A DNA stretch of 64,000 bases, from positions 1-64,000 of the IMG/VR virus record IMGVR_UViG_3300020195_001430; one strand, 5' to 3'. The notes under the pieces were generated by a model that searched no databases, was not told where the DNA came from, and saw only the letters and a program-made list of their open reading frames with translations. Positions 10,077 to 64,000 of the stretch are shown here, piece by piece. The position numbers and the translations under genes were made by a program. Source of the stretch: a virus. Numbering within the stretch: the stretch's first letter is position 1; each line of letters begins with the position of its first letter.

Positions 10077-11102
10077 ATGGACAGACCTATTGACTGCCGT
10101 TCTTTTAGAAGATTCGGCACAGAAATCGAACTGAATACTCTGAATGGAATTATTAAGAGGCCAGACTCAGAGGCCGGAGAAATTCCAAACGGTGCCGACT
10201 ACGTTGCTTATATTGTAAGAAAAGCATCTAAAGACAAAGTACAGATCTCTTCTTGGGATTATGTTCACAACAATGACAATTGGGTGTTGAAGCATGACAT
10301 GAGTTGTGGATTGGAGATCAACACGCCGGTCTTCAAGGGATGGCACGGATTACAAAAATTGGTTCGAGTCATTGAAGCTTTGTCAAAAGATCCTAAGATC
10401 AAAGCAAATCACTTGTGTTCTTTGCATGTTCATGTTGGCATTGGGGATCTGGATGTTGAGCAACTGGCGGCTGTGATTGCTTATTACATCAAATGCGAGC
10501 ATATCTTTTTTGATTCGGTTCCATCACAAAGAAAAAACAATCGTTATTGTCAGTTGATAGGAATGACTGATTGGTTCGGAACTGATTTCGATATGGACCC
10601 CATGGATATTGTTAGTCGTATCTCACAATCAAAATATGGGTCAATCAACGCATTTCATTTTGTAAGAGGCGGTGGCTTCGTCACTGGTAATGATCGCAGA
10701 CAGACTTTGGAATTCAGGATTGCGGAGAACACGGCATGTGTAGATCCGTACTTTACTAAGAACTGGGTTCGTTTATTATTGCACTTCATAGAAGTAACTA
10801 AAGATAGAAGACTGCCTCGTCCATATTCTCTTGGCAACCAGATGTCTGGATTGGCGTGGCTGGACTTCCAAGAAGTTTACAAGTTGCTGAAATTTGATCA
10901 AGAACTATCTCCGGGGATGCAACAGGTCCGCCAATGGTTTATGGACCGCATTACAAAAAACGGGAATGCGACTGGGTATTCTGCCATCTGGTCTGAGGCA
11001 GGTAGATCTGTTTGCAGAAATCAATTTTTGGATATCAGCAGAAAACTAGCAAGGATCAATGATTATGAAGATGCTTTGTATGGAGAGAAGTGGTCTGTCT
11101 GA
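10077..11102 (+). CDS. Putative amidoligase (glutamine synthetase/GCS-like fold)
   Basis: 341 residues with the signature order of the Amidoligase_2 family: FGTEIEL near residue 14 (metal/ATP-binding glutamates), WVLKHDMSCGLEINTPV near residues 70-90, and LHVHVGIGDL near residue 120. Downstream are an Arg-rich loop and RQTLEFRI near residue 205. These enzymes join amino groups to carboxylates using ATP and are proposed to modify peptides, cell wall or proteins. Substrate is unknown. It starts its own transcript and is followed by an unrecognised 148-residue protein. Confidence 0.75.
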   Translation: MDRPIDCRSFRRFGTEIELNTLNGIIKRPDSEAGEIPNGADYVAYIVRKASKDKVQISSWDYVHNNDNWVLKHDMSCGLEINTPVFKGWHGLQKLVRVIEALSKDPKIKANHLCSLHVHVGIGDLDVEQLAAVIAYYIKCEHIFFDSVPSQRKNNRYCQLIGMTDWFGTDFDMDPMDIVSRISQSKYGSINAFHFVRGGGFVTGNDRRQTLEFRIAENTACVDPYFTKNWVRLLLHFIEVTKDRRLPRPYSLGNQMSGLAWLDFQEVYKLLKFDQELSPGMQQVRQWFMDRITKNGNATGYSAIWSEAGRSVCRNQFLDISRKLARINDYEDALYGEKWSV

Positions 11103-33812: not shown

Positions 33813-35177
33813 ATGCAACTATTGAAAGAGTTCCTTCAAAAGAACAGAGAAAGAAAGCTTAAGATCCATTGTGTTGGCGATGCAATGATCGACGAATACT
33901 ATGACGTAAAAGTCAATCGTATAAGTCCAGAGTTCCCAATGCCAATCATGTGGTCTTCTAACAATTGGCCCATCAGGCGACCGGGCGGTGCCGCCAATGT
34001 TGCTTACCAATTCAGGCACTTCAATGTAGAGCCACTACTTGTCTGTTGGTGTGATGATCTTGGAAGAAGCGTTTTTACAGATCATCAGATTCGGTGGAGC
34101 CACGCTCTTGCTTCTGAATGTTGCACTCTGCCAGTCAAAAAGAGATTCTTAGATAATGGTGTTCAAGTTGTTAGGCATGATATTGAGACGCCTCTATGTG
34201 GATTAGATGAACATGTTGTTGATTTTGCCACAACTCAGATAACAACAATTATCCAAAAGACATTCAGACCAGATGTGGCCATATTATCTGACTACAATAA
34301 GGGTTTCTTCTCAAGTGAAGAGTATCGAGTGCTGGATTACTACAGAGATGTAACGACCATTGTAGACCCCAAGAAGGGTCCGCTGTCGAAATGGAAGGGA
34401 TGTACGATATTCAAGCTGAACGACAAGGAAGCTCTGGAGTTGTCTGGCAGGACGAATTGGAAAGAGCAAGCCAAGCAACTCCAAAATGAATTGGAGTGTG
34501 AAGCTGTTGTGATCACGTTTGGCGGCGATAGAGTGTCTGGTGTTTGGAACGGAGACTTCTTCAATTTCAAACCAGAACATTCTGTAGTTGTCGAAAGTGT
34601 TGTTGGAGCAGGAGATTGCTTTGCCGCTTTCTTCTCAATGGCAATTGGCCATGGATTCTGTGTGCCAGAGGCCGCAGAGATCGCTTGGTATGCAGGTTCC
34701 AACTACGTCAAGAACAGAAGAAACAGACCCATAGTCCCAGCCGAGTTGGACCCAACTGGAGTTGTAGATCCAGCCGATTTAGAGAACCGTGATTTCAAGT
34801 TGGTGTTCACAAATGGATGCTTCGACCTTCTGCATGAAGGGCACATCAAAACTTTGGAGTTCGCCAAGAGCAAAGGCGACAAGCTTGTTGTGGCGATCAA
34901 TTCAGATGACAGTGTGAAGAGGCTTAAAGGCGAAAATCGACCTATCAAATCACTCGATCAGCGGATGGCGGTGATGAGTGCTATGAAAGCGGTCGATTTT
35001 GTTGTGTCTTTTGATGAAGACACGCCATTGGAATTGATCAAAAGAATCAAGCCCGATGTTCTTGTCAAAGGACAAGACTATAAGGAAAGTGAAATTGTTG
35101 GAGCAGACTTAGTTTCAGAAGTGTATCGAGCACCAATTATTAAGGGCTTGAGCACCTCTGGATTCCTTAAGACTTAA
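33813..35177 (+). CDS. hldE: Bifunctional HldE-like heptose kinase/adenylyltransferase
   Basis: 454 residues. Residues 1-310 are a PfkB-type sugar kinase (RRPGGAANVAYQ, then VVGAGDCFAAFF with the catalytic GAGD). Residues 330-454 are a nucleotidyltransferase (FTNGCFDLLHEGHIKTL with the HxGH motif; NSDDSVKRLKG). This is the arrangement of HldE/RfaE, which makes ADP-heptose for LPS core. The protein is slightly shorter than E. coli HldE (477). It suggests that the phage alters or sustains heptose supply, matching the GT9-like gene at 42093. Confidence 0.9.
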   Translation: MQLLKEFLQKNRERKLKIHCVGDAMIDEYYDVKVNRISPEFPMPIMWSSNNWPIRRPGGAANVAYQFRHFNVEPLLVCWCDDLGRSVFTDHQIRWSHALASECCTLPVKKRFLDNGVQVVRHDIETPLCGLDEHVVDFATTQITTIIQKTFRPDVAILSDYNKGFFSSEEYRVLDYYRDVTTIVDPKKGPLSKWKGCTIFKLNDKEALELSGRTNWKEQAKQLQNELECEAVVITFGGDRVSGVWNGDFFNFKPEHSVVVESVVGAGDCFAAFFSMAIGHGFCVPEAAEIAWYAGSNYVKNRRNRPIVPAELDPTGVVDPADLENRDFKLVFTNGCFDLLHEGHIKTLEFAKSKGDKLVVAINSDDSVKRLKGENRPIKSLDQRMAVMSAMKAVDFVVSFDEDTPLELIKRIKPDVLVKGQDYKESEIVGADLVSEVYRAPIIKGLSTSGFLKT

Positions 35178-36336: not shown

Positions 36337-38424
36337 ATGGAGAACACATCAGTCTTAAAGAAATTCGCAGATCTGTATGATCGTCGTGAGTTTCTTGCTC
36401 TTAACGAAGAGATGTCCTTCGCAGAGTATCTGGAAAAGGTACGGTCGAAACCAAAGCTGGCCAGAAACTCATTTCAATATGTCTACGACATGATCATGGA
36501 GAAGGGCACTAGCACCTTCGAACGATACCGCAAGACATATACCCGGTATCACTTCTTCAACGACAACGAGGTTCCTATCTTCGGTCTCGAAGAAACTCTT
36601 CAGGATCTCGTGGATTTCATCCATGGTGCCGCTGGCAACTATGGAACAGAGCGTAGAGTTCTGTTGCTGCACGGTCCTGTAGGATCGTCCAAATCCACAA
36701 TCTGCCGTCGTCTCAAGAGAGGTCTTGAAACCTACTCTCGTTCTGAAGCCGGAGCGTGGTACACCTATAAGTGGGTGGGTCTCCCAACCGAAGCCGATGG
36801 TTTGAACCCGGCAGTTTTCACAGAGGCATCAGATGTGTCTCCGATGAACGAGAACCCTTTGAAGCTCATGCCAAAGAATATGCGTGATGAGTTCCTCAAA
36901 GAAGTCAATTCAGCAAATCACGAAATGTCCAGTGAAGAAGATCGTGAAAACATTTACAGGTTGATTTGTGATGGCGACTTGAACCCACGTTGCAAGTTGT
37001 TCATGAAGATGCTCTTGGAAAGATACAAGGGCGATTGGCTTCAGGTTGTCGAGAATCACATCGTTGTGATTCGCCGAGTCCACTCGGAAATCGACAGATG
37101 CGGCATCGGCACATTCCAGCCGAAGGATGAAAAGAACCAAGACAGCACCGAATTGACAGGTGACATCAACTTCCGTCACATCGGAAACTATGGTTCTGAC
37201 TCCGACCCACGAGCCTTCAACTTCGACGGCGAATTCGAAGTGGCTAACCGTGGCGTATGTGAATTCATCGAAATGTTGAAACTCGCCAATGAGTTCCTCT
37301 ACGATTTGCTCGGCGTTGCACAAGAACACCAGATCAAACCCAAGAAGTTCTCACAGATCGTGGTTGATGAATTCATCATCGCCCACACCAACAACCCTGA
37401 ATACGAGAAGCTCAAGAACAACCAGTTCATGGAAGCTCTTCGTGACAGAACAGTCAAGGTTGACGTGCCATACTTGACACGTTGGTCTGACGAAATCAAG
37501 GTGTTGGAGCAGGATTATGGTCCGGGCAAGATCAAGCAACACATCATGCCGCACACACTGGAAATCGCAGCACTCTTTGCTGTGCTCACCAGATTGCAGG
37601 ATGACCCAGACGGCAAGATGGACTTGCGTGACAAGGCCAAATTGTACGATGGACGCAGCTTGCCGGGATGGACAGAAGATTCTGTCAAGGAACTCCGAGA
37701 CAGATTCGTCGATGAAGGTCTGACCAGCGGTGTGTCTGCTCGATACACACAGAGCGGTATCTCCAACTGTTTGGCTCGACACAAGAAGTACGTCAACGTC
37801 TTCCATGTCATGAGCGAACTCAAGGAAGGTCTTGGAGCATCCTCGCTGATCAGCAAGGTTGAAGACAAGAAGAGATACGAATACTGTGCCGAGTTGGCCA
37901 TCAAGGAACTGGACGAAATTCTGAAGAATGAAGTTCAGCGTGCCCTTGTCTCTGACGAGAAGGCAATGGAACGTCTCTGCAACAAGTACATCGACAACGT
38001 GATCTCCTATGTGAACAACGAACGTATGATCAATCCAATCACGAACCAGCCGATGGAGCCGGACGAAAGGTTGATGAGAAGCATTGAAGAGAAGGCTGAC
38101 ATCCCAGAACAGGGTTGTGATGACTTCCGTCGTAGCTTGGCGGCGTTCATGGGAACTCAGAGCCGTCGTGGCAAGGAATTCAAGTGGGATTCCAACGAAG
38201 AACTCAAGAGGGCTATTGAGGCCAAAGTCTTCGAGGACATCAAGGACACCATCAAGTTGTCCACATTGACCAAAGAAGCTGCTGAGTTGGACAAGGATCT
38301 GCAAGAAAAAATCGACGCTATCAAGACTCGGTTGATCAAGCAGTATGGCTACAACATGCAGTCTGCCACAGACGTTCTGGATTACGTCAGTTCAATTTTT
38401 GCAAGAGGGGATATCTCTAAGTAG
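36337..38424 (+). CDS. prkA: PrkA/YeaG-family serine protein kinase
   Basis: 695 residues, the usual PrkA length being about 640-690. The AAA-type P-loop is GPVGSSKS at 113-120. The N-terminal region (MSFAEYLEKVRSKPKLARN.. QYVYDMI) and the long C-terminal kinase-like part are family-typical. PrkA is a stress-linked bacterial kinase/AAA protein encoded with YeaH and SpoVR, and both homologues lie downstream here. AAAAGGGG precedes the ATG. A strong terminator follows, so the phage trio is no longer one simple operon. Confidence 0.92.
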   Translation: MENTSVLKKFADLYDRREFLALNEEMSFAEYLEKVRSKPKLARNSFQYVYDMIMEKGTSTFERYRKTYTRYHFFNDNEVPIFGLEETLQDLVDFIHGAAGNYGTERRVLLLHGPVGSSKSTICRRLKRGLETYSRSEAGAWYTYKWVGLPTEADGLNPAVFTEASDVSPMNENPLKLMPKNMRDEFLKEVNSANHEMSSEEDRENIYRLICDGDLNPRCKLFMKMLLERYKGDWLQVVENHIVVIRRVHSEIDRCGIGTFQPKDEKNQDSTELTGDINFRHIGNYGSDSDPRAFNFDGEFEVANRGVCEFIEMLKLANEFLYDLLGVAQEHQIKPKKFSQIVVDEFIIAHTNNPEYEKLKNNQFMEALRDRTVKVDVPYLTRWSDEIKVLEQDYGPGKIKQHIMPHTLEIAALFAVLTRLQDDPDGKMDLRDKAKLYDGRSLPGWTEDSVKELRDRFVDEGLTSGVSARYTQSGISNCLARHKKYVNVFHVMSELKEGLGASSLISKVEDKKRYEYCAELAIKELDEILKNEVQRALVSDEKAMERLCNKYIDNVISYVNNERMINPITNQPMEPDERLMRSIEEKADIPEQGCDDFRRSLAAFMGTQSRRGKEFKWDSNEELKRAIEAKVFEDIKDTIKLSTLTKEAAELDKDLQEKIDAIKTRLIKQYGYNMQSATDVLDYVSSIFARGDISK

Positions 38425-43176: not shown

Positions 43177-46104
43177 ATGGCAAAAGTTTCTAAAATGATG
43201 AGTGGGTCTCCGATCCTTTGTGGCGATAACACAATTCCGGGATTGAAGATTCACAAAGAAGTTCTCGAACAGATTCCCGCTATTGAAGCGGCCTGTAAAG
43301 GTATGGGTCTGGACTACTACCCAATCATCGTGGAATTCGTCAGATATGACGAAATGGCAGAACTCGCCAGTTATGGCGGATTTCCTGTAAGATACCCACA
43401 TTGGAAATGGGGAATGGAATATGAAGAACTCTCCAGAGGTTACGAGTACAATCAATACCGTATCTCTGAAATGGTAATTAATTGTTTGCATCCAGAAGCT
43501 CCAGTCTTAACATCACAAGGCACCATATCGGCTAAAAATGTTAAGACGGGAGATGAAGTTTTGTTAGATGGCAGAACAAGGAATGTAATCGCTGTTGTGC
43601 GACAACCAAAAGCGAAGACTAAGAAAATTCGTCTTCGTAAAGGGCAAGAAATGATTTGTTCTCCAAATCATAAATGGAAAGTTTTGACAAAAAACGGACC
43701 TGACTGGGTTGAAACAAAAGATCTTAAATCAGGAGATATTTTGTTGGGCAACGATTCATTCAATATGGTTCGTTGGGACACTAAATTGCAATGGTCCTTG
43801 GATGATGTGTGGGACGACACTCGGCCAGCATCCAGACCTTGGCTTAAAAAAATTGTTCCGCCAGCAGAAATGAATTTGGCTTTGGCAGAACTTTTGGGCG
43901 TGCTAATTGGAGATGGTTCGGTTGGGGTTCAAGGTGCAGAAAATAATTTAGCTGTAGCTGTAGGAAAAGATAATCGCCAATATGCTGAACACGTGGCATC
44001 GTTATTTTCTGTTGTTTTTGGATTAGAGGCTGTAATCCAAGAGAAAACGGCTGGGTTGGTTGTTCTTTTGCAGTCTAAAGTTGCTGTTGATTTTGTTGAT
44101 TATCTTGGCATAAACAAAGGTTCTACATATGAGAACAAGAGAATCCCACATTCAATTTGGAAATCTCATCCGATTTTCAGAGCAGCGTTCCTAAAAGGTT
44201 TATTTGATACAGACGGATATGCCACTGATCAACTCGGCATGAGTTGTTTTAATATTAATCTTGCTAATGATGTCCAAATTATGTTTTCTGAGATGGGCAT
44301 TCAGACTATATTAGAAACATTGACAAATGGCACAGGAAAATACGGCAATGAACTATTCATCAATGTTGTAGAAATTAGAGGACAAGCCGCTCTTAGAAAA
44401 TTCCGGGACAGGATTGGATTCACTATTCCTTACAAAACACAGGGCTTGAATAAACTCACATCACGAATTTATTGTCGTGGCGGAGGGATTCATTCTGAAT
44501 ATATTCAAAACTCTCTTTTGGAATGGGGAGAAGAGATGGATATTACATCTTATAACTGTCCGTCTCTTGGTCGCTCGCTGAATCAGATGAAAAAGAAAAG
44601 TGTTGGAAACAACTGTTTGCTCAGCTTTATTGAAAGGGCGGCTAATGTTGAGAAATATAATTCACCAGCGGAACTGTTGATGATATTAGAAAACCCAATG
44701 TTTGAGGTTCAAGATGTGCTAGATGGTGAAGAAACAGAAACAATTGACATTGCTTTAGATCATAACGATCATGATTTTATAGCTTATGGTCTTGTTACTC
44801 ATAACACCAACCCATGCTACATCTATTGCATGGACTCAAACACACTTGTTGACAACGTGGACGTTATAGCCCACGCTATTGGTCACAACGACTTCTTCAA
44901 GAACAATATTTTCTTCGAGCCGACCGATGAAAACATGATGAACAAGTTGGCCAACCACGGCACCAGAATCAGGAAATACATGTCCCGTTGGGGATATGAA
45001 GTGGTAACTGAATTCATTGATCATGTTCTGAGGATTGACACTTTGATTGATCCACAACATGCGTGGAGCAAGAAGACGATCAGAAATGCTGTTGTTAAAG
45101 ACGAGAGAAGTTATCTGTTTCCAGAGCGTCTCAAGTCACACCACAACTACATGGATGAATGGGTCAACCCAAAGAGCTTCATCGACAAACAGCACGAGGA
45201 CATTGAGAAGCAAGAAGCCGCTCAATTCTTGGACATCTTCGAGAAGCCTGAGAAAGACATTCTGGGATTCATCAAGGACAATGCTCCTTTGAAACCATGG
45301 CAACAAGACATCATCAGTATGCTGTATGAAGAGTCGATGTACTTCCAGCCGCAACGTCAAACGAAGATGCTCAATGAAGGTTGGGCGTCGTATGTTGACT
45401 ATCATCTGATGTGCCGAGAAGGTCTCTGTAATCTGGGGCAGAAGAAGGATGGCGACGGTATTTGGCATTACGCCGATCACAAGTGGCGAGTTCTGGGCGG
45501 CAAGTATTCCATGAACCCATACAAGATGGGATTTGAGATCCTGTTGGATATCGAGGATCGTTGGAATAAGGGTCGATTCGGCAGGGACTACGAAGAGTGC
45601 CGTGACATCAAGAAAAAGGAAGACTGGGATTTGAAGCTTGGTCTTGGCAAAGAGAAAGTCTTTGAGGTTCGCAAGTTCTACAACGACTACACAGCAATTC
45701 AAGAGTTCTTCACGCCAGAGTTGTGTGAGAAGAAGCAATTCTTTGAATGGCGTCTCTTCCCTAACGGCGAATACAAGATCATCAACCGGGACTTCAAGAC
45801 GATCAAGCAGAAACTGTTGAAGAGATACTTGAATGGTGGCTTGCCAGACATCAGACTTACTGATCCAAATCACTTGGGCAAGGGCTGGTTCTTCATCAAG
45901 CACATGTGGGACGGTCGTCCTCTGGAAGAACGATACGCCAGAGAAACAATCATCTCATTGTTCAAGCTGTGGCAGAATACGATTATTCTGTCTACACAAA
46001 CGATGGAAGACAAGGAGTTTGTCTACATCTGTGATGGAACTAATCCTGACAAGGATGTTCACCTTCTGACACGTGAAGAATACGAAAAGGATTTCATGCG
46101 ATGA
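43177..46104 (+). CDS. SpoVR-family protein precursor containing an intein
   Basis: 975-codon precursor. The extein (residues 1-102 and 544-975, 534 residues after splicing) matches SpoVR/YcgB: YYPIIVEFVRYDEMAELASY, GYEYNQYRISEMVIN joined to TNPCYIYCMDSNTLVDNVDV, then HAIGHNDFFKNN with conserved His. SpoVR works with PrkA and YeaH in stress and sporulation-linked responses in bacteria. The intein interrupts the conserved VIN/TNPC region. The next gene overlaps the stop by four bases (ATGA). Confidence 0.92.
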   Translation: MAKVSKMMSGSPILCGDNTIPGLKIHKEVLEQIPAIEAACKGMGLDYYPIIVEFVRYDEMAELASYGGFPVRYPHWKWGMEYEELSRGYEYNQYRISEMVINCLHPEAPVLTSQGTISAKNVKTGDEVLLDGRTRNVIAVVRQPKAKTKKIRLRKGQEMICSPNHKWKVLTKNGPDWVETKDLKSGDILLGNDSFNMVRWDTKLQWSLDDVWDDTRPASRPWLKKIVPPAEMNLALAELLGVLIGDGSVGVQGAENNLAVAVGKDNRQYAEHVASLFSVVFGLEAVIQEKTAGLVVLLQSKVAVDFVDYLGINKGSTYENKRIPHSIWKSHPIFRAAFLKGLFDTDGYATDQLGMSCFNINLANDVQIMFSEMGIQTILETLTNGTGKYGNELFINVVEIRGQAALRKFRDRIGFTIPYKTQGLNKLTSRIYCRGGGIHSEYIQNSLLEWGEEMDITSYNCPSLGRSLNQMKKKSVGNNCLLSFIERAANVEKYNSPAELLMILENPMFEVQDVLDGEETETIDIALDHNDHDFIAYGLVTHNTNPCYIYCMDSNTLVDNVDVIAHAIGHNDFFKNNIFFEPTDENMMNKLANHGTRIRKYMSRWGYEVVTEFIDHVLRIDTLIDPQHAWSKKTIRNAVVKDERSYLFPERLKSHHNYMDEWVNPKSFIDKQHEDIEKQEAAQFLDIFEKPEKDILGFIKDNAPLKPWQQDIISMLYEESMYFQPQRQTKMLNEGWASYVDYHLMCREGLCNLGQKKDGDGIWHYADHKWRVLGGKYSMNPYKMGFEILLDIEDRWNKGRFGRDYEECRDIKKKEDWDLKLGLGKEKVFEVRKFYNDYTAIQEFFTPELCEKKQFFEWRLFPNGEYKIINRDFKTIKQKLLKRYLNGGLPDIRLTDPNHLGKGWFFIKHMWDGRPLEERYARETIISLFKLWQNTIILSTQTMEDKEFVYICDGTNPDKDVHLLTREEYEKDFMR
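43483..44805 (+). other. LAGLIDADG intein in SpoVR
   Basis: 441 residues. It begins at Cys (CLHPEAPVLTSQG) after extein VIN and ends at His-Asn (AYGLVTHN) before extein Thr. Splicing blocks are visible: block B as CSPNHKW and block F as HDFIAYGLVTHN. In the middle, LLGVLIGDGSV and FLKGLFDTDGY are the two LAGLIDADG helices with catalytic Asp, so the homing endonuclease appears intact. Confidence 0.9.
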
Positions 46105-50848: not shown

Positions 50849-51628
50849 ATGTCATCAGGAATTAAGCTTACACAAGAAGAAGTTTCAGATTATTTTAAGC
50901 AACAAGGTTGTGAACTTCTCGATTCATACAAGAACGCACGTACTAAGATAAAGTATCGCTGCGTGTGTAACAATATATCAGAAATAGTTTTTTACAGTTT
51001 TAAGGCAGGTAATCGTTGTCGCAATTGTGGCAACAATAAAAATTCTGACAGGCAAACTTTTTTACAAAAAGAAGCAGAAGAAAAATTTAATAAAATTGGT
51101 TGTAAGCTGATTGGAAGTTACACAAAATCCAGAATACCAGTTGAATTTCAATGTCATTGTGGATTGATTTCTACAGGAATTCCAAATAATATTTGGAGAC
51201 GTGGTCGCTGTGGAGAATGTGGCATTAAAGCTAGATCAAAAGAGAATCATTATATGTGGTATGATGATCGTGAAGAATATAAGCAGATTTGTAGCTTCAA
51301 GGATCGTTGTCATAAGCTCATAACCATGGTTCTTAATGTAACTGGAAGAGTAAAAAACAAAAAGTCGGCAGAACTTTTGGGGTACGATTACAAACAACTT
51401 CAAGAGCATATCAAATCACATCCGAATTGGTCTAAAATTAAAGGAAAGTGGCATGTTGATCACATATTTCCTATCAAGGCATTTATTGATCATGGAATTT
51501 CTGATTTAAAGATAATTAATGGTTTGGATAATTTAAGACCACTTGACTCTAATGAAAATTTGTGCAAGAATGCGAAGTATGATAAGGATGAATTTTACAC
51601 TTGGCTTAAAAAGAAAGGGATTTTATGA
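50849..51628 (+). CDS. Free-standing HNH homing endonuclease next to dnaE
   Basis: 259 residues. Two N-terminal treble-clef-like repeats (CVCNNISEIVF..CRNCG and CHCGLISTG..CGECG) look like DNA-binding zinc modules. The C-terminal HNH core is WHVDHIFPIKAFID followed by LDNLRPLDSNENLCKNAK, with catalytic His and Asn. Its TGA overlaps the dnaE ATG. The short group I intron lies 55 bases downstream and has no endonuclease of its own. Confidence 0.88.
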   Translation: MSSGIKLTQEEVSDYFKQQGCELLDSYKNARTKIKYRCVCNNISEIVFYSFKAGNRCRNCGNNKNSDRQTFLQKEAEEKFNKIGCKLIGSYTKSRIPVEFQCHCGLISTGIPNNIWRRGRCGECGIKARSKENHYMWYDDREEYKQICSFKDRCHKLITMVLNVTGRVKNKKSAELLGYDYKQLQEHIKSHPNWSKIKGKWHVDHIFPIKAFIDHGISDLKIINGLDNLRPLDSNENLCKNAKYDKDEFYTWLKKKGIL

Positions 51629-53297
51629 TGCACCATCCAATTACAGGTTTTGAACATTTGCATCGTCATAGTGATTTTAGCCTCAACAATTAGGGGGCCT
51701 TGTCAGAGAAATCTGATAAGCAAACCGGGTGAACTCAGGGAAACCCTAACGTAAAGACGAGGGCAATCCTGAGCCAAGCCTGCGATACATCGCAGGAAGG
51801 TGCAGAGACTACTGGAGGGATAAAGTTCCCTTAATTACCAGATTCAGTGCCCGGCATCCATTTTGGATGATGATATAGTCCACGCCACAGGAAACTGTGG
51901 AACCGTCGTGCTTAGACGGATTCGCCATGGTCTCCGAATACGCCGAGCGTATGCGGGAAATCAATCAAAAGTTTCTGTGCATTACAGACCACGGGGTGAT
52001 GGGTGCTGTGCCACAGCAAGTATCCGAAAGCGAGAAACACAATCTGTTTCCGCTATTCGGATGCGAGCTTTACATCAACCACATGCAGCCAGAAGTCAAC
52101 AGCCGGGAAGAGTCGGCTGAATACAGAAAGTCTTTGGGAGATGGATCGACTGAAGATCGTACTTCCATAGACAAGAAGCCAAGTCTGCTGCAAAAGAAGT
52201 TCGACAAGTCGTCGCACTTGTTGGCCATTGCCTACAACAACGTGGGCTATTCCAATCTTGTGCGTTTGACATCATGGGCATGGATTCACGGTTACTACCG
52301 TCGCCCACGCATCAATCACGAAGTCCTTCAGAAGTACAAAGAAGGCATCATCTTTACGACCGGCTGTGGCAACAGCGAGATCGCCAATGCTTTTATGGGC
52401 GACAAGGATGAGTCAGGCAAGCCGATCTTCAATGAAGAAGCCGGATTCCAAATGTTGGAACGGTATATCCAGATGATCGGCACCAAGCACCTCAAGCTTG
52501 AATTGATGATGCTGGACTGGGTGATGCAGAAGTTCTACAACCAGTTCTTGATCAAGGCCCACGACAAGTATCGTCTTGATCTTACGCTCTCACAGGATTG
52601 CCATTACTGTAAGAAAGAGCACAGCCATAACCAGCAGTTGATGCTCATGCAGCAGAACAAACGCACGCTTGGTGAAATCCAAGCGATGATCGACGCTGGC
52701 GATGCCGATGACATTTTCGAGCTTCAGGACACGAATCTGTGGCTCAAGTCGGAAGATGAACTGAATGTCAAATGGGAATCTGATTTCAGCGACATCATTC
52801 CATACGAACTTTTTAAGCAGTCCAAAGAGAACACAGTCAAAATCTGTGAGTATGCGAAGGGCGTGGAGATTGATCGTCAGATTAAGCTCCCGAAGATGCC
52901 TGACGCTGAAGAACAACTCATGGATCACATCAAACGAGGATTCCTTTCTCGTCACTGCCCCAAGACGCCAGAATACTCCAAGCGGATCAAAGAGGAATAT
53001 GAATTGATCTGCGAGAAGGGCTTTGCCAGCTACTTCCTGATTCAGAAGATGATGACGGATGAGGCTCGTGTCAAAGGCCCAGAACTTCTCGGATTTGGAG
53101 ATGGATCAGAAGCTGTTGGTCCCGGTCGAGGATCGGCCTGTGGATCATTGGTGGCCTACTGCTTGAGGCTCCACGATGTGGAACCCATTGTTCATGACTT
53201 GAGATTCTCCAGATTCTTGAGTCCTGCTCGTGGTGGTCGCCAGATGCGGATTCGGTATGGAATGGAACCGATCCCGCACGAGATTGTACAGATGTAA
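51625..53297 (+). CDS. dnaE: DNA polymerase III alpha (DnaE), N-terminal part, split gene
   Basis: Exons 51625-51683 and 51911-53297 join to give about 481 residues. Exon 1 ends in HLHRHSDFSL and exon 2 begins LDGFAMVSEY, restoring the PHP-domain start. Further PHP motifs are CITDHG and SQDCHY. The protein then enters the palm: YFLIQKMMTDEA, AVGPGRGSACGSLVAYCL and RFSRFLSPARGG. It stops there after EIVQM, without the catalytic aspartates, which are encoded 7.3 kb downstream at 60608. AAAGGGA precedes the ATG. Confidence 0.88.
51684..51910 (+). ncRNA. Group I intron without an internal ORF
   Basis: 227 bases. The 5' splice site follows U51683, which pairs as U-G in P1 (exon GCCU with intron GGGGC). 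Conserved core pieces are visible: AATCCTGAGCCAAG (Q region), GGTGCAGAGACTA (R/P7) and GATATAGTCC (S/P7'). The intron ends in G51910. Splicing restores the DnaE frame exactly. Confidence 0.9.
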
Positions 53298-58145: not shown

Positions 58146-58544
58146 ATGGAACTGCTTATTGTCGGCATGGCGTTTCTCATCGGATTCGGCTCATATCTGG
58201 CTTTTGCGAGGCCAGTTCAACCAGACCAAGTGCATTACGAGCTTCAGGACGCCAATTTATGGCTCAAACCTGAAGAGGAACTGGCTCAAACAGCCCCAGC
58301 CCCATTCAACCAACCAGTGCCACCATGCGTTCCTTCTTCAAACTCTGACGAAGAGGAGGAAGACGATGACGACATGGACGAAGAAGATGACTACGACGAT
58401 GACGAAGACGACTACGAGGATGAGGAAGAGTACGATTACGATGACGAGGAAGAGGAGGAAGAGGAGGAATGGGACGACGATGACGACGAGGAAGATGACG
58501 AGGAAGATGACGAGGAAGAAGACGAGGACGACGATATTTGGTGA
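58146..58544 (+). CDS. Membrane-anchored protein with a very acidic tail
   Basis: 132 residues: one N-terminal membrane helix (about 2-20), a 45-residue linker and then about 70 residues almost entirely Asp/Glu with some Tyr. The linker peptide YELQDANLWLKPEEEL is nearly the same as a segment of the DnaE PHP region (ELQDTNLWLKSEDEL), and 37 of 45 bases match. The acidic tail could mimic DNA or bind cations; function unknown. Confidence 0.65.
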   Translation: MELLIVGMAFLIGFGSYLAFARPVQPDQVHYELQDANLWLKPEEELAQTAPAPFNQPVPPCVPSSNSDEEEEDDDDMDEEDDYDDDEDDYEDEEEYDYDDEEEEEEEEWDDDDDEEDDEEDDEEEDEDDDIW

Positions 58545-60607: not shown

Positions 60608-63600
60608 ATGAAAGAACGGTCCCGGCTTCTCAAGCTCTGTGTGAATGGTTTAGAGTCAAAAGGTCTCACCGGAGATGTTTATAAAGAACGTCTCAAGAAA
60701 GAGATCAAGGCAATCGACGAGCAGGCAGAACACGAATACCTGCTCAATTTGCACGACAAATTTAAGTCGCAAGGATTGATTTTCCCTAAAAACGAAAACA
60801 ATCTCTTTGTGGCCTATCTGCTGGGTCTGACAGATGATTTCGATCTTGCTGCCGAGCCTGTGTTTGTTCAGGGCGAGTTCCCGGACATCGACATCGACTA
60901 TCTTAAAGATGTGCGTGATTATCTCAAACGCACATGGGCACCTAAGCAATGGGGCCAAGAGTTTATCTGTGAGATCGGCACATACGGCACATCGGGTATC
61001 AAGTCGTCCATTCTGGACATGGCTCGTGTTCACAACGTCGAGAAAGACGAAATCCAATCCATCACTGTGAAGATGGAAGACAAGGATGATGAAGGCAAGT
61101 TGCTGGAGTGGGACAAGGCTTTGGAGATGTATCCAGAGTTTAAGTCTTACTGTGACCGGCACCCACAAGTTTCGGAAGCCGCACATCTTCTTCTCGACAG
61201 AAACCGTACTGGTGGAGTTCACGCCGGGGGTTTGATTATCTCCAGTGTTCCGATTGATGGATTTGTCCCTCTCGAAGTCCGATCAGTCAACAAGGCCAAT
61301 CCCAATGGCGTCATTTGTTCTGCGTGGACAGAAGGTCTAAACGCACAGGATTTGCAGCCAGTTGGATTGATCAAATTCGACTTGCTGGTCATCAACAACC
61401 TGATGCAAATCGCACAGGCTTGTAAGCTCGTCAAAGATCGTCATGGACTCACAAGTATCTGTGCTTTGCCCGGCTTGTGGGACTGGTCCGACATTTCTTA
61501 CTTGAATGATCCCAAGGCCCTTGAGATGGCCAACAACGGTGATCTCAAGTGCATCTTCCAGTTTGACGGCGAAGGCATTCGCAAGATGGTCAAACGTGGC
61601 GGCGTCACGGTCTTCGATGACGAAGCGGCCTACTCTGCTCTGTATCGCCCCGGCCCACTGAACATGGGCATGGATGCCAGATACTGTAAGCGGAAGAGAT
61701 GGGAGCAAGACAAGAACCATCCAGACGGTGAGCCATACAACATTCATCCGTTGATGAAGCCGATTCTCGGAAAGACCTATGGCGTTCTGGTTTATCAAGA
61801 ACAGGTCATGGACATTCTGCGTGTTGTTGGGTTGATTCCCGACATGCACACAGAGAAGGTACGAAAGGCCATCTCCAAGAAGAAGGTCAAAGACTTCATC
61901 AAGTACAAAGAACAGTTCATCGAAAATGGACAGAGAGTTCTGGAAGTCAATCGTGATTTCGTGGAAGACTTGTGGAACCAGATTGAGTCTTTTGCGGAAT
62001 ACGGTTTTAACAAAAGTGTACTCATGTACACTAAAATTCCATATGTTGGCGGAGTTAAATGTATTAAAGATTTTGTGCCCGGAGATATGGTTTACTGTGT
62101 TGATGAAACCGGAGCAACAGTAGAAACAGAAGTGGTTGCTTTGCATGATCATGGGGAAATAGAAGGATTTGAGGTCACTTTTGATGATGGATACAAAGTG
62201 ACGTGTTCAGCCAATCACAAATTTCTTACAGAAAAAGGTCAGGTTTCTTTGAGGAATATTTGCAGAACACGCTCTTATATATTGTCTACTCACAATATAA
62301 GGAGTTTGTATGCCGACAAAGAAACAGGATGGATGGAAATCTCTTTGCAATCAGGAGTTTCCAAACAGGAAGGAATATCACGATCATCAGAAGAATTGCA
62401 TTCAATGCGAAACAGCGAGAGTACAGCAGAAGCTGGAGAAATCGAAGTTTGTTGCTCGATGCGGAGAGAAGATGTTAACCAGAGAAATAATGTGGGAACA
62501 TCACAGGTCTTGCGAAAAATGCCTTCAATTGGCATGGAAGAACGAAGAAACACAACATCTCTCAAGATGCGGGATCGAGTTCCGAACATACAGAGAACGG
62601 GAGGAACATCTAAGGACTTGCGATGTTTGCAGTCAATTGAAACAGAAGAATATTCAAGAACGAATGGAGAAACTCAACAAGGACAATTTGGCTCCAGAAA
62701 AGAAGAAAATATTTTCAGACACGGCACGAAAAACATCTGCTCGACCAGAGTTGCTAGCTCAACGAGCGGCAAATCTCAAAAAATGGAGAGAGGAGAATCC
62801 AGAGAAGTTTGCAAAATGCACAGAGGCGGCTTGGAAGAGTCCAAAGAGATCTCGAATGGAAGCATGGTTGAGAAATCAATTAGGATGGAGCTTCGAAAGG
62901 ATTCTTTGTGGGGAAATACAAAAACAAGTGGACTTCGTGAAGGACAAGATTTGGATCGAGGTGGACGGTTATTATCATTTCTTCGAGCACAAGAGCAATT
63001 CGGAGAATCAGTACAGACTCCCGAAGGTTCAGGCACGAGATCAGATGCTCAACGAGGAGTGTGTCAAGAGAATGGATGTGATGCTTCTGAGGTTGAGCAT
63101 GGAGTGTTTTCATTCTTCAACGGGTGCGATGAAGATAGAGATTTGGGATTGGGTGCAGGTCATGCTCCGATCACCGATACCGGGAATTTGGTGCCTCGGA
63201 AAATTGTACGAGTCGTGCCCGTGGGCAAATGCCACATGTTCGATCTTGAAGTTGCCAACCCAACACACAACTTCTTGCTCCCAAATGGCGTTGTGACAAG
63301 TAACAGTCACGCTTATGCGTACACATACATTTCCGCACGACTGCTATGGTTGAAAGCACACTATCCGCTGGAGTTCTACACAGCGATCCTGATGTGTGAA
63401 GACGATCACGAGAAGTTCAAGCAAGTGAGAATTGACGCCAAGGCCCATGGAATAGAAATTTGCGGCGTGCAAATCAATCGTTCCAAGGAGAACTTCAACA
63501 TCGAAGATGGGAAGATCTACTTTGGCTTCGGAAACATCAAAGGGATTGGTGTTGAGGTCGCCAAACGAATCGTTGAATGTCAGCCCTACAAGAGCTTGGC

Positions 63601-64000
63601 TGATTTCCTCAATCGTTTTGGGACAGACGCTTCTGTACTCAAGGCATTGGTGGCTCTTGGCGTATTTGAAGAACCATACGACCGTGTTACGCTCCGCAGT
63701 TTCTCCGAGTTCTACAAGGACAAAGCTGTCAAGCGACGGCAACGGGCACAGCGGTACGAAGCCTCGTTGGACAAGAAGAAGGATGAACTGGCAAATCACA
63801 TCTTGACCTATCTGGCCGAGAATGACTCGGACTATCCTGATCCACAGGATCATCTGCAAGATCCGTTGTTCAAACAGATGTGTCAGTTCACGCCAGAGGC
63901 AGATGCTCTTTGGAAGGAACATTTCGAGAAAAATTTGGTGAGCGTGCCGTTCAAGTATCGTGGGGAAGAACGCACCAAGCAGGTCTCTGCATACAAGATT
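60608..64000 (+). CDS. dnaE: DNA polymerase III alpha (DnaE), C-terminal part with intein, truncated by window end
   Basis: Open from ATG 60608 (behind AAGGAGG) to the window edge, 1131 codons. Residues 20-85 are a degenerate second version of the palm start (LLNLHDKFKSQGLIFPKNEN, VAYLLGLTD). The catalytic cluster PDIDIDY is at 92-98 (Asp93, Asp95, Asp97), and the third carboxylate is in IKFDLL (Asp258). Fingers motifs include YRPGPLNMGMDARY, VLVYQEQVMDILR and FAEYGFNK joined to SHAYAYTYISARLLWLKAHYP after intein removal. It must pair with the N-terminal protein from 51625. Confidence 0.9.
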   Translation, partial: MKERSRLLKLCVNGLESKGLTGDVYKERLKKEIKAIDEQAEHEYLLNLHDKFKSQGLIFPKNENNLFVAYLLGLTDDFDLAAEPVFVQGEFPDIDIDYLKDVRDYLKRTWAPKQWGQEFICEIGTYGTSGIKSSILDMARVHNVEKDEIQSITVKMEDKDDEGKLLEWDKALEMYPEFKSYCDRHPQVSEAAHLLLDRNRTGGVHAGGLIISSVPIDGFVPLEVRSVNKANPNGVICSAWTEGLNAQDLQPVGLIKFDLLVINNLMQIAQACKLVKDRHGLTSICALPGLWDWSDISYLNDPKALEMANNGDLKCIFQFDGEGIRKMVKRGGVTVFDDEAAYSALYRPGPLNMGMDARYCKRKRWEQDKNHPDGEPYNIHPLMKPILGKTYGVLVYQEQVMDILRVVGLIPDMHTEKVRKAISKKKVKDFIKYKEQFIENGQRVLEVNRDFVEDLWNQIESFAEYGFNKSVLMYTKIPYVGGVKCIKDFVPGDMVYCVDETGATVETEVVALHDHGEIEGFEVTFDDGYKVTCSANHKFLTEKGQVSLRNICRTRSYILSTHNIRSLYADKETGWMEISLQSGVSKQEGISRSSEELHSMRNSESTAEAGEIEVCCSMRREDVNQRNNVGTSQVLRKMPSIGMEERRNTTSLKMRDRVPNIQRTGGTSKDLRCLQSIETEEYSRTNGETQQGQFGSRKEENIFRHGTKNICSTRVASSTSGKSQKMERGESREVCKMHRGGLEESKEISNGSMVEKSIRMELRKDSLWGNTKTSGLREGQDLDRGGRLLSFLRAQEQFGESVQTPEGSGTRSDAQRGVCQENGCDASEVEHGVFSFFNGCDEDRDLGLGAGHAPITDTGNLVPRKIVRVVPVGKCHMFDLEVANPTHNFLLPNGVVTSNSHAYAYTYISARLLWLKAHYPLEFYTAILMCEDDHEKFKQVRIDAKAHGIEICGVQINRSKENFNIEDGKIYFGFGNIKGIGVEVAKRIVECQPYKSLADFLNRFGTDASVLKALVALGVFEEPYDRVTLRSFSEFYKDKAVKRRQRAQRYEASLDKKKDELANHILTYLAENDSDYPDPQDHLQDPLFKQMCQFTPEADALWKEHFEKNLVSVPFKYRGEERTKQVSAYKI
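62273..62303 (+). promoter_or_regulatory. RNA hairpin hiding the ribosome site of the nested endonuclease
   Basis: 12 paired bases with one bulged A (62273-62285 with 62292-62303) include AGGA of the AGGAG Shine-Dalgarno at 62300-62304, six bases before the ATG at 62310. Confidence 0.7.
62310..63296 (+). CDS. VSR/DUF559-like homing endonuclease nested in the intein, +1 frame
   Basis: 328 residues, overlapping dnaE in the +1 frame and ending 8 bases before the intein end. The N-terminal 100 residues carry three repeats of a Cys..H..Cys-x2-Cys zinc pattern (ending HQKNCIQC, HHRSCEKC and HLRTCDVC). A NUMOD-like basic segment (TARKTSARPELLAQRAANLK) follows. The C-terminal nuclease fold has QVDFVKDKIWIEVDGYYHFF with Asp and Glu as catalytic candidates, then RMDVMLLRLSM. 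It is a complete, coherent protein, unlike the overlying intein frame. Confidence 0.82.
   Translation: MPTKKQDGWKSLCNQEFPNRKEYHDHQKNCIQCETARVQQKLEKSKFVARCGEKMLTREIMWEHHRSCEKCLQLAWKNEETQHLSRCGIEFRTYREREEHLRTCDVCSQLKQKNIQERMEKLNKDNLAPEKKKIFSDTARKTSARPELLAQRAANLKKWREENPEKFAKCTEAAWKSPKRSRMEAWLRNQLGWSFERILCGEIQKQVDFVKDKIWIEVDGYYHFFEHKSNSENQYRLPKVQARDQMLNEECVKRMDVMLLRLSMECFHSSTGAMKIEIWDWVQVMLRSPIPGIWCLGKLYESCPWANATCSILKLPTQHTTSCSQMAL

Follow-up and report, generated by a model that had tools for sequence, protein, structure and literature searches.

A putative homing endonuclease gene overprinted on the open frame of a dnaE intein

INTRODUCTION

Inteins are classed as full-length (with an in-frame endonuclease), mini or split (PMC7765530). 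Fractured genes that carry split inteins together with EDxHD endonucleases were described by Dassa et al. (2009; doi 10.1093/nar/gkp095), as related in PMC12350094 and PMC6801210, and the EDxHD family has been reviewed (PMC3943268). In 2025, an out-of-frame HNH endonuclease was reported in the ShiLan element, a non-splicing insert in a phage methylase gene (PMC11855218); the same paper points to a preprint for overlapping frames in actinobacteriophages.

The dnaE insert considered here has neither the layout of a full-length intein nor that of a fractured gene. Its endonuclease is not an in-frame domain but lies at +1 in nine loci, and no stop separates the N- and C-terminal splicing parts (IntN and IntC), as it would in a fractured gene or split intein (0 stops in nine loci).

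RESULTS

The dnaE frame reads through an intein

The window, by which we mean the whole 64,000-nt stretch of viral DNA analysed, ends within a dnaE gene whose stop lies further on, near position 64672 of the complete viral record (65,289 bases). The dnaE frame has the following parts.

60608..64000, + strand: dnaE (DNA polymerase III alpha, PHP part absent), a continuous ORF through the intein
62015..63304, + strand: intein, 430 aa, Ser1 to Asn430, site YGFNK/SHAYAY
62015..62320, + strand: N-terminal splicing domain (residues 1-102), modelled with confidence as a HINT fold and containing the conserved His68 of block B
62321..63157, + strand: stop-free linker of the intein frame (residues 103-381), pLDDT <50, with the composition that the overprinted frame would lead one to expect
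63158..63304, + strand: C-terminal splicing domain, residues 382-430, DLEV...HNF...TSN, then Ser+1

The boundaries given in the initial annotation, 62015-63304, match the first Ser and the last Asn. Excision of this segment joins YGFNK to SHAYAY, and two intein-less phage dnaE genes (L009 and L010) read YGFNA/SHAYAY, an empty site that fits exact removal of the intein sequence. The window intein has Ser1 as nucleophile, the terminal Asn430 and Ser+1. Terminal Asn and Ser+1 are present in all members with the overprinted layout described below, and the B-block His68 is invariant in an eight-member alignment. Residue 1 is Thr, which is unusual, in five of the nine overprinted loci (L013, L015, L031, L036 and L044). 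The penultimate His of the G block, usual although not universal in inteins, is replaced by Ser in all overprinted members, and Ser also occupies this position in those fractured relatives whose IntC was located.

In an AlphaFold model of the intein frame, most residues of the two end segments, 1-102 and 382-430, have a pLDDT of about 90 or higher, and the middle falls below 50 and appears disordered. The best PDB matches of the model are inteins (E 7e-7), among them Npu DnaE and Ssp DnaB; sequence profiles for inteins match under their curated cut-offs (PF14890, 24 versus 35.8 bits; TIGR01445, 19.4 versus 24.5 bits). The two ends are thus confidently predicted to form a HINT splicing domain, and this model, together with the conserved splicing residues, bears out the assignment of the splicing domains to the DnaE frame. 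The conserved residues suggest that the precursor splices in cis. Reading the insert as a catalytic RNA (intron) was considered and dropped, with no support from Rfam.

The insert could instead be of the ShiLan type: the homing endonuclease would be out of frame, and the in-frame translation of its gene would be tolerated as a loop without protein splicing. The same overprinting principle has indeed been published for phage methylase inserts (PMC11855218). Here, however, both ends are confidently modelled as a HINT domain that matches solved inteins and keeps the conserved splicing residues, the insert lies within a conserved stretch of an essential polymerase, and one bacterial relative (L038, see below) has retained the splicing domain after losing the endonuclease. 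We consider a non-splicing insert very unlikely.

Several other features of the window touch on DnaE and on inteins. DnaE itself is divided over two ORFs 7 kb apart: 51897-53297 covers PHP and the first part of the polymerase (phrog_405 positions 54-439), and 60608-64000 covers the remainder (from 441); intein halves were not seen at this break in the window. The HNH-type endonuclease encoded at 50849-51628 (phrog_559, E 6e-17), just ahead of the PHP-DnaE ORF, may represent a free-standing homing enzyme in the neighbourhood of dnaE. A SpoVR-like gene (43177-46104) holds an ordinary intein with an in-frame LAGLIDADG endonuclease (PF14528 2e-12, PF14890 4e-7), and two intein designs, in the SpoVR-like gene and in dnaE, are thereby present in one phage. 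PrkA and SpoVR are both found on this phage contig, the PrkA-type kinase at 36337-38424; a PfkB plus cytidylyltransferase fusion lies at 33813-35177 and an amidoligase at 10077-11102. At 58146-58544 is a 132-aa ORF whose C-terminal half is nearly all Asp/Glu plus some Tyr and Trp.

A separate endonuclease gene lies in the +1 frame

A separate endonuclease gene in the +1 frame, with its own ATG and Shine-Dalgarno sequence, had been proposed for this locus. The ORF and an AAGGAG motif are both there, and the gene is arranged as follows.

62299..62304, + strand: Shine-Dalgarno-like AAGGAG, 5 nt ahead of the endonuclease ATG
62310..63296, + strand: gene for the 328-aa EDxHD/Vsr-type homing endonuclease, offset by +1 from the dnaE frame
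62346..62630, + strand: three zinc-finger-like repeats, residues 13-33, 51-71 and 87-107, with zinc-finger arrays among the fold matches
62637..62837, + strand: helical linker/NUMOD-like DNA-binding segment, residues 110-176
62847..63173, + strand: nuclease domain, residues 180-288, with E184, D208, H223 and D244
63174..63296, + strand: endonuclease tail and stop over the C-terminal splicing domain, where codon positions follow the intein frame

The three zinc repeats noted at the outset are visible in the translation as three copies of C-x(n)-H-x3-C-x2-C, and their number differs among relatives. The structural model (pLDDT 77.8) comprises zinc-finger-like units, long helices and a nuclease domain. 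The most conserved stretch of the protein is the helical linker/NUMOD-like segment (TAKKTSARPE..LKKWREENPE). When the nuclease domain was searched by fold against the PDB, no hit passed E 0.001; the best was Vsr (1vsr; E 0.024, probability 0.94), with I-Bth0305I lower, in line with the Vsr-type nuclease originally suggested. At the level of sequence, the endonuclease gave no convincing match in PDB or Pfam, and on its own found no match among 50,697 phage records. We assign E184, D208, H223 and D244 to the EDxHD motif. All four are intact in the nine overprinted loci, and across the 29 endonuclease members D208, H223 and D244 are invariant and E184 is kept in 28. By analogy, this putative homing endonuclease may cleave intein-less dnaE site-specifically.

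Overlapping +1 frames would also be compatible with programmed ribosomal frameshifting, in which ribosomes leaving the dnaE/intein frame would make a fusion of N-extein, IntN and endonuclease, with no internal initiation. Support from the start region is weak in L015, where the Shine-Dalgarno-like sequence is weak or absent, and the exact endonuclease start is unsure in L015, L036 and L044. Such a sequence does precede the endonuclease in most other members, and the window, L002, L013 and L014 have a clear Shine-Dalgarno sequence and ATG. In the fractured relatives, too, the endonuclease is a separate ORF that starts inside IntN. These observations make frameshifting improbable and favour internal initiation.

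The same layout is kept in nine divergent loci

Relatives were found by profile scans, and most of them are metagenomic contigs; an initial scan of genome contigs gave none, and a six-sequence profile then detected L036. The overprinted layout occurs at the same dnaE site in nine loci, namely the window and eight others, with endonuclease identity down to about 33%. Six of the eight are viral contigs (L002, L013 on a 458-kb contig, L014, L015, L016 and L031) and two are bacterial (L036, a Thiotrichaceae MAG, and L044, from genome G419, a 4.28-Mb single contig). In all nine the endonuclease is at +1 and the intein frame is open. Among these relatives we found neither an in-frame endonuclease nor stops in the intein frame, either of which would have spoken against overprinting. 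The neighbours of dnaE in L036, named from our own reading of the ORFs, we take to be ispA-, dxs-, pgi- and purD-like. Since the intein-bearing dnaE is the sole copy found in the L036 genome and in the L044 genome, a functional polymerase in these hosts should need splicing, provided that the assemblies are complete.

An IntC-like half of another intein was seen at the start of, or within, the dnaE genes of L016 (3219-8255) and L007 (1440-3044) and the N-side ORFs of L021 and L025, an example being NAEGMAVHNSA before a GRGSAAGSL site. Several phage dnaE genes therefore carry more than one intein, some apparently split.

In a single sequence, a similar picture could arise from a pseudogene or a frameshift artefact, with an ordinary in-frame endonuclease displaced by two indels or sequencing errors, and the linker indeed has no recognisable domain. 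The layout recurs at this insertion site in the eight further loci, however, which excludes chance or frameshift error as its source: the same frames recur in nine divergent loci, one of them on the 4.28-Mb single contig, and no in-frame relative was found. Nor can indels yield the codon choice described next. We give this explanation next to no credence.

Wobble choice in the endonuclease keeps the intein frame open

Synonymous recoding with phage codon usage predicts 20.2 ± 3.5 stops in the intein frame of the window, against 0 observed. None of 20,000 recoded samples was free of intein-frame stops, and the analytic P is about 10^-11.8 for the window alone. The frame had been described as stop-free over 328 codons with a chance of 10^-7; the open frame is confirmed and the evidence is stronger than claimed.

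It follows from the genetic code that, at the +1 offset, an intein-frame stop requires a T-ending codon before a codon starting AA, AG or GA. Because every such stop needs a wobble T in the endonuclease, all of them are avoidable silently, at small cost. In the window, stop-making wobble T is used at 0/53 T-capable sites, compared to 59/108 at other sites; pooled over the nine loci, the counts are 0/418 versus 483/979 elsewhere. Each overprinted locus has 0 stops versus 13-28 expected. Single-locus P values range from about 10^-6.5 to 10^-19, and, as the loci are related, these values are not to be multiplied.

Divergence by codon position, a check proposed for both frames, gave an answer for each. 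Between the window and L002, the endonuclease core diverges by 0.37/0.28/0.58 at codon positions 1/2/3, the pattern of an ordinary gene, whereas the last 40 endonuclease codons, which lie over IntC, give 0.125/0.375/0.30. Across eight members, the core values are 0.45/0.36/0.63, and fourfold divergence in the core (0.53) is slightly under that of flanking genes (0.64-0.88). By these patterns, it is the endonuclease frame that is under selection in the core; over the C-terminal splicing domain it is the intein frame. No extra selection on linker hydropathy was seen relative to stop-free recodings (z between -2.0 and 2.1). As the linker is in this respect like any stop-free recoding, the intein frame in the middle seems to be selected mainly for staying open.

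Fractured relatives use the same site

Twenty further loci have, at this dnaE site, homologous endonucleases (about 23-35% identical to that of the window) flanked by the halves of a split intein, so that free-standing EDxHD-type nucleases in this position, mentioned in the initial annotation as known, are seen among the relatives themselves. In these loci the IntN ORF terminates, the endonuclease usually begins inside IntN in the other forward frame, and IntC is an ORF of its own, located in 18/20. The frame that is open in the overprinted set contains 26-59 stops in the 16 fractured loci counted, where T in stop-making contexts occurs at ordinary rates, with no avoidance. Overprinted and fractured members fall on opposite sides of one branch, both in the endonuclease tree (support 100/100) and in the IntN tree (100/99); both trees are unrooted, and the second rests on IntN only, the IntC parts not having been picked up.

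With fractured genes as the nearest relatives at this site, the continuous reading might be incidental, with the protein made as a split intein and an internal start serving an IntC-dnaE piece. Stops in the linker would then be harmless, yet there are zero in nine loci, and the mini-intein of L038 is a single continuous ORF. We regard a split product as extremely unlikely and retain the continuous, presumably cis-splicing precursor.

Loss of the endonuclease leaves a mini-intein

The dnaE gene of a bacterial genome (G118; locus L038), the sole copy found there, contains a 148-aa mini-intein at the same site, and in the IntN tree L038 nests beside L036 and L044. Its +1 frame reads SGKLYKWVSKCGEV, an internal stop and, further on, MINDGNWQGIWCFGEWCESVSWDGIKVTIWR followed by a stop. 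Both ends match the L036 endonuclease, which has SGKSYNWVAKCGAV and IINDGSWDGIRCYGSLYEPLSWDGIKVTILK, the latter followed by the stop, at the corresponding places. Besides this internal stop, the L038 remnant has lost a large inner part of the gene, and the deletion leaves the intein reading frame intact. The match of the G118 tail had been considered as a surviving endonuclease and was rejected, being this fossil in the mini-intein. When the endonuclease dies, this sequence suggests, the intein frame is the part retained.

DISCUSSION

We put at roughly 90% the probability that this dnaE locus holds a mobile intein that relies on double coding, with a splicing precursor and an overprinted homing endonuclease. 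Ribosomes translating dnaE would traverse the whole insert without meeting a stop and make one precursor. The ends of the intein frame, predicted to fold as HINT, would excise the intein and join YGFNK to SHAYAY, and the middle would be a disordered linker. A second initiation on the same mRNA, at the internal Shine-Dalgarno sequence and ATG, would produce the +1-frame endonuclease, as these signals and the codon conservation suggest. Judging from its family and from the empty alleles, the enzyme would cut intein-less dnaE at the junction, and repair would copy the element in. The intein frame is kept open cheaply through wobble choice in the endonuclease, and, when the endonuclease decays, a deletion that preserves the intein frame may survive, as seen in L038.

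A broader reading, which we consider probable though with less assurance, is that the dual-coding inteins form a previously undescribed group of single origin, in which the endonuclease, translated on its own, lies entirely over a cis-splicing intein whose frame is held open by selection at wobble positions. They would have passed between phages and entered the replicative polymerase genes of bacteria, would cycle through overprinted, mini-intein-with-fossil and empty states, and would have a fractured-gene counterpart.

In this layout, splicing and homing have common DNA but separate proteins, and either one can therefore be expressed, tuned or lost without the other; the initial suggestion that endonuclease expression and splicing can be controlled separately is plausible. 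The layout also ties the fractured-gene arrangement to continuous inteins. It is a natural case of two-protein coding on about 1 kb under a simple rule (no wobble T before AA, AG or GA), and it shows that a HINT domain can house very long disordered linkers. Such endonucleases would be overlooked by annotation that allows one ORF per locus.

The initial annotation saw here a third arrangement of intein and endonuclease. Nine overprinted loci support this claim, which is qualified by the out-of-frame endonuclease already published in a non-splicing phage insertion (PMC11855218). Reports of out-of-frame intein endonucleases were limited to ShiLan-type inserts in the literature covered, which stops short of the full text of Dassa et al. 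(2009) and of the Gosselin et al. (2025) actinobacteriophage intein preprint (doi 10.1101/2025.01.02.630785). An endonuclease wholly overprinted on a continuous intein is thus apparently an undescribed layout, with priority uncertain.

Each known system shares part of this layout. With full-length inteins, the dnaE element has in common HINT and the placement of the endonuclease between N- and C-terminal splicing domains; in those inteins the endonuclease is an in-frame domain, whereas here it is a separate protein in another frame. The Npu and Ssp DnaE inteins presumably sit three codons upstream of the window site (Y/CFN). They have the HINT fold and the dnaE host gene in common with the window intein (PDB 4kl5, 1zd7), but are split inteins without an endonuclease. 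The predicted nuclease fold and the E...D...H...D residues are shared with I-Bth0305I and Vsr (PDB 3r3p, 1vsr); the fold match is remote, and the window endonuclease has in addition a zinc-finger-like N-terminal array. The ShiLan element is likewise a mobile insert in which the endonuclease gene lies entirely over an open frame of the host gene. Its nuclease is of the HNH type and starts with GTG, no ribosome binding site is detectable, and a splicing domain is lacking (PMC11855218); in the dnaE element the nuclease is of the EDxHD/Vsr type, a Shine-Dalgarno sequence is present and the host frame encodes a HINT splicing domain. Fractured genes, finally, share an EDxHD-type endonuclease that is its own gene tied to an intein, and the fractured relatives found here occupy the dnaE site of the overprinted loci, with homology in their inteins as well as in their endonucleases. 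In fractured genes, however, the intein is split, whereas here it is continuous, with its frame open across the whole endonuclease gene.
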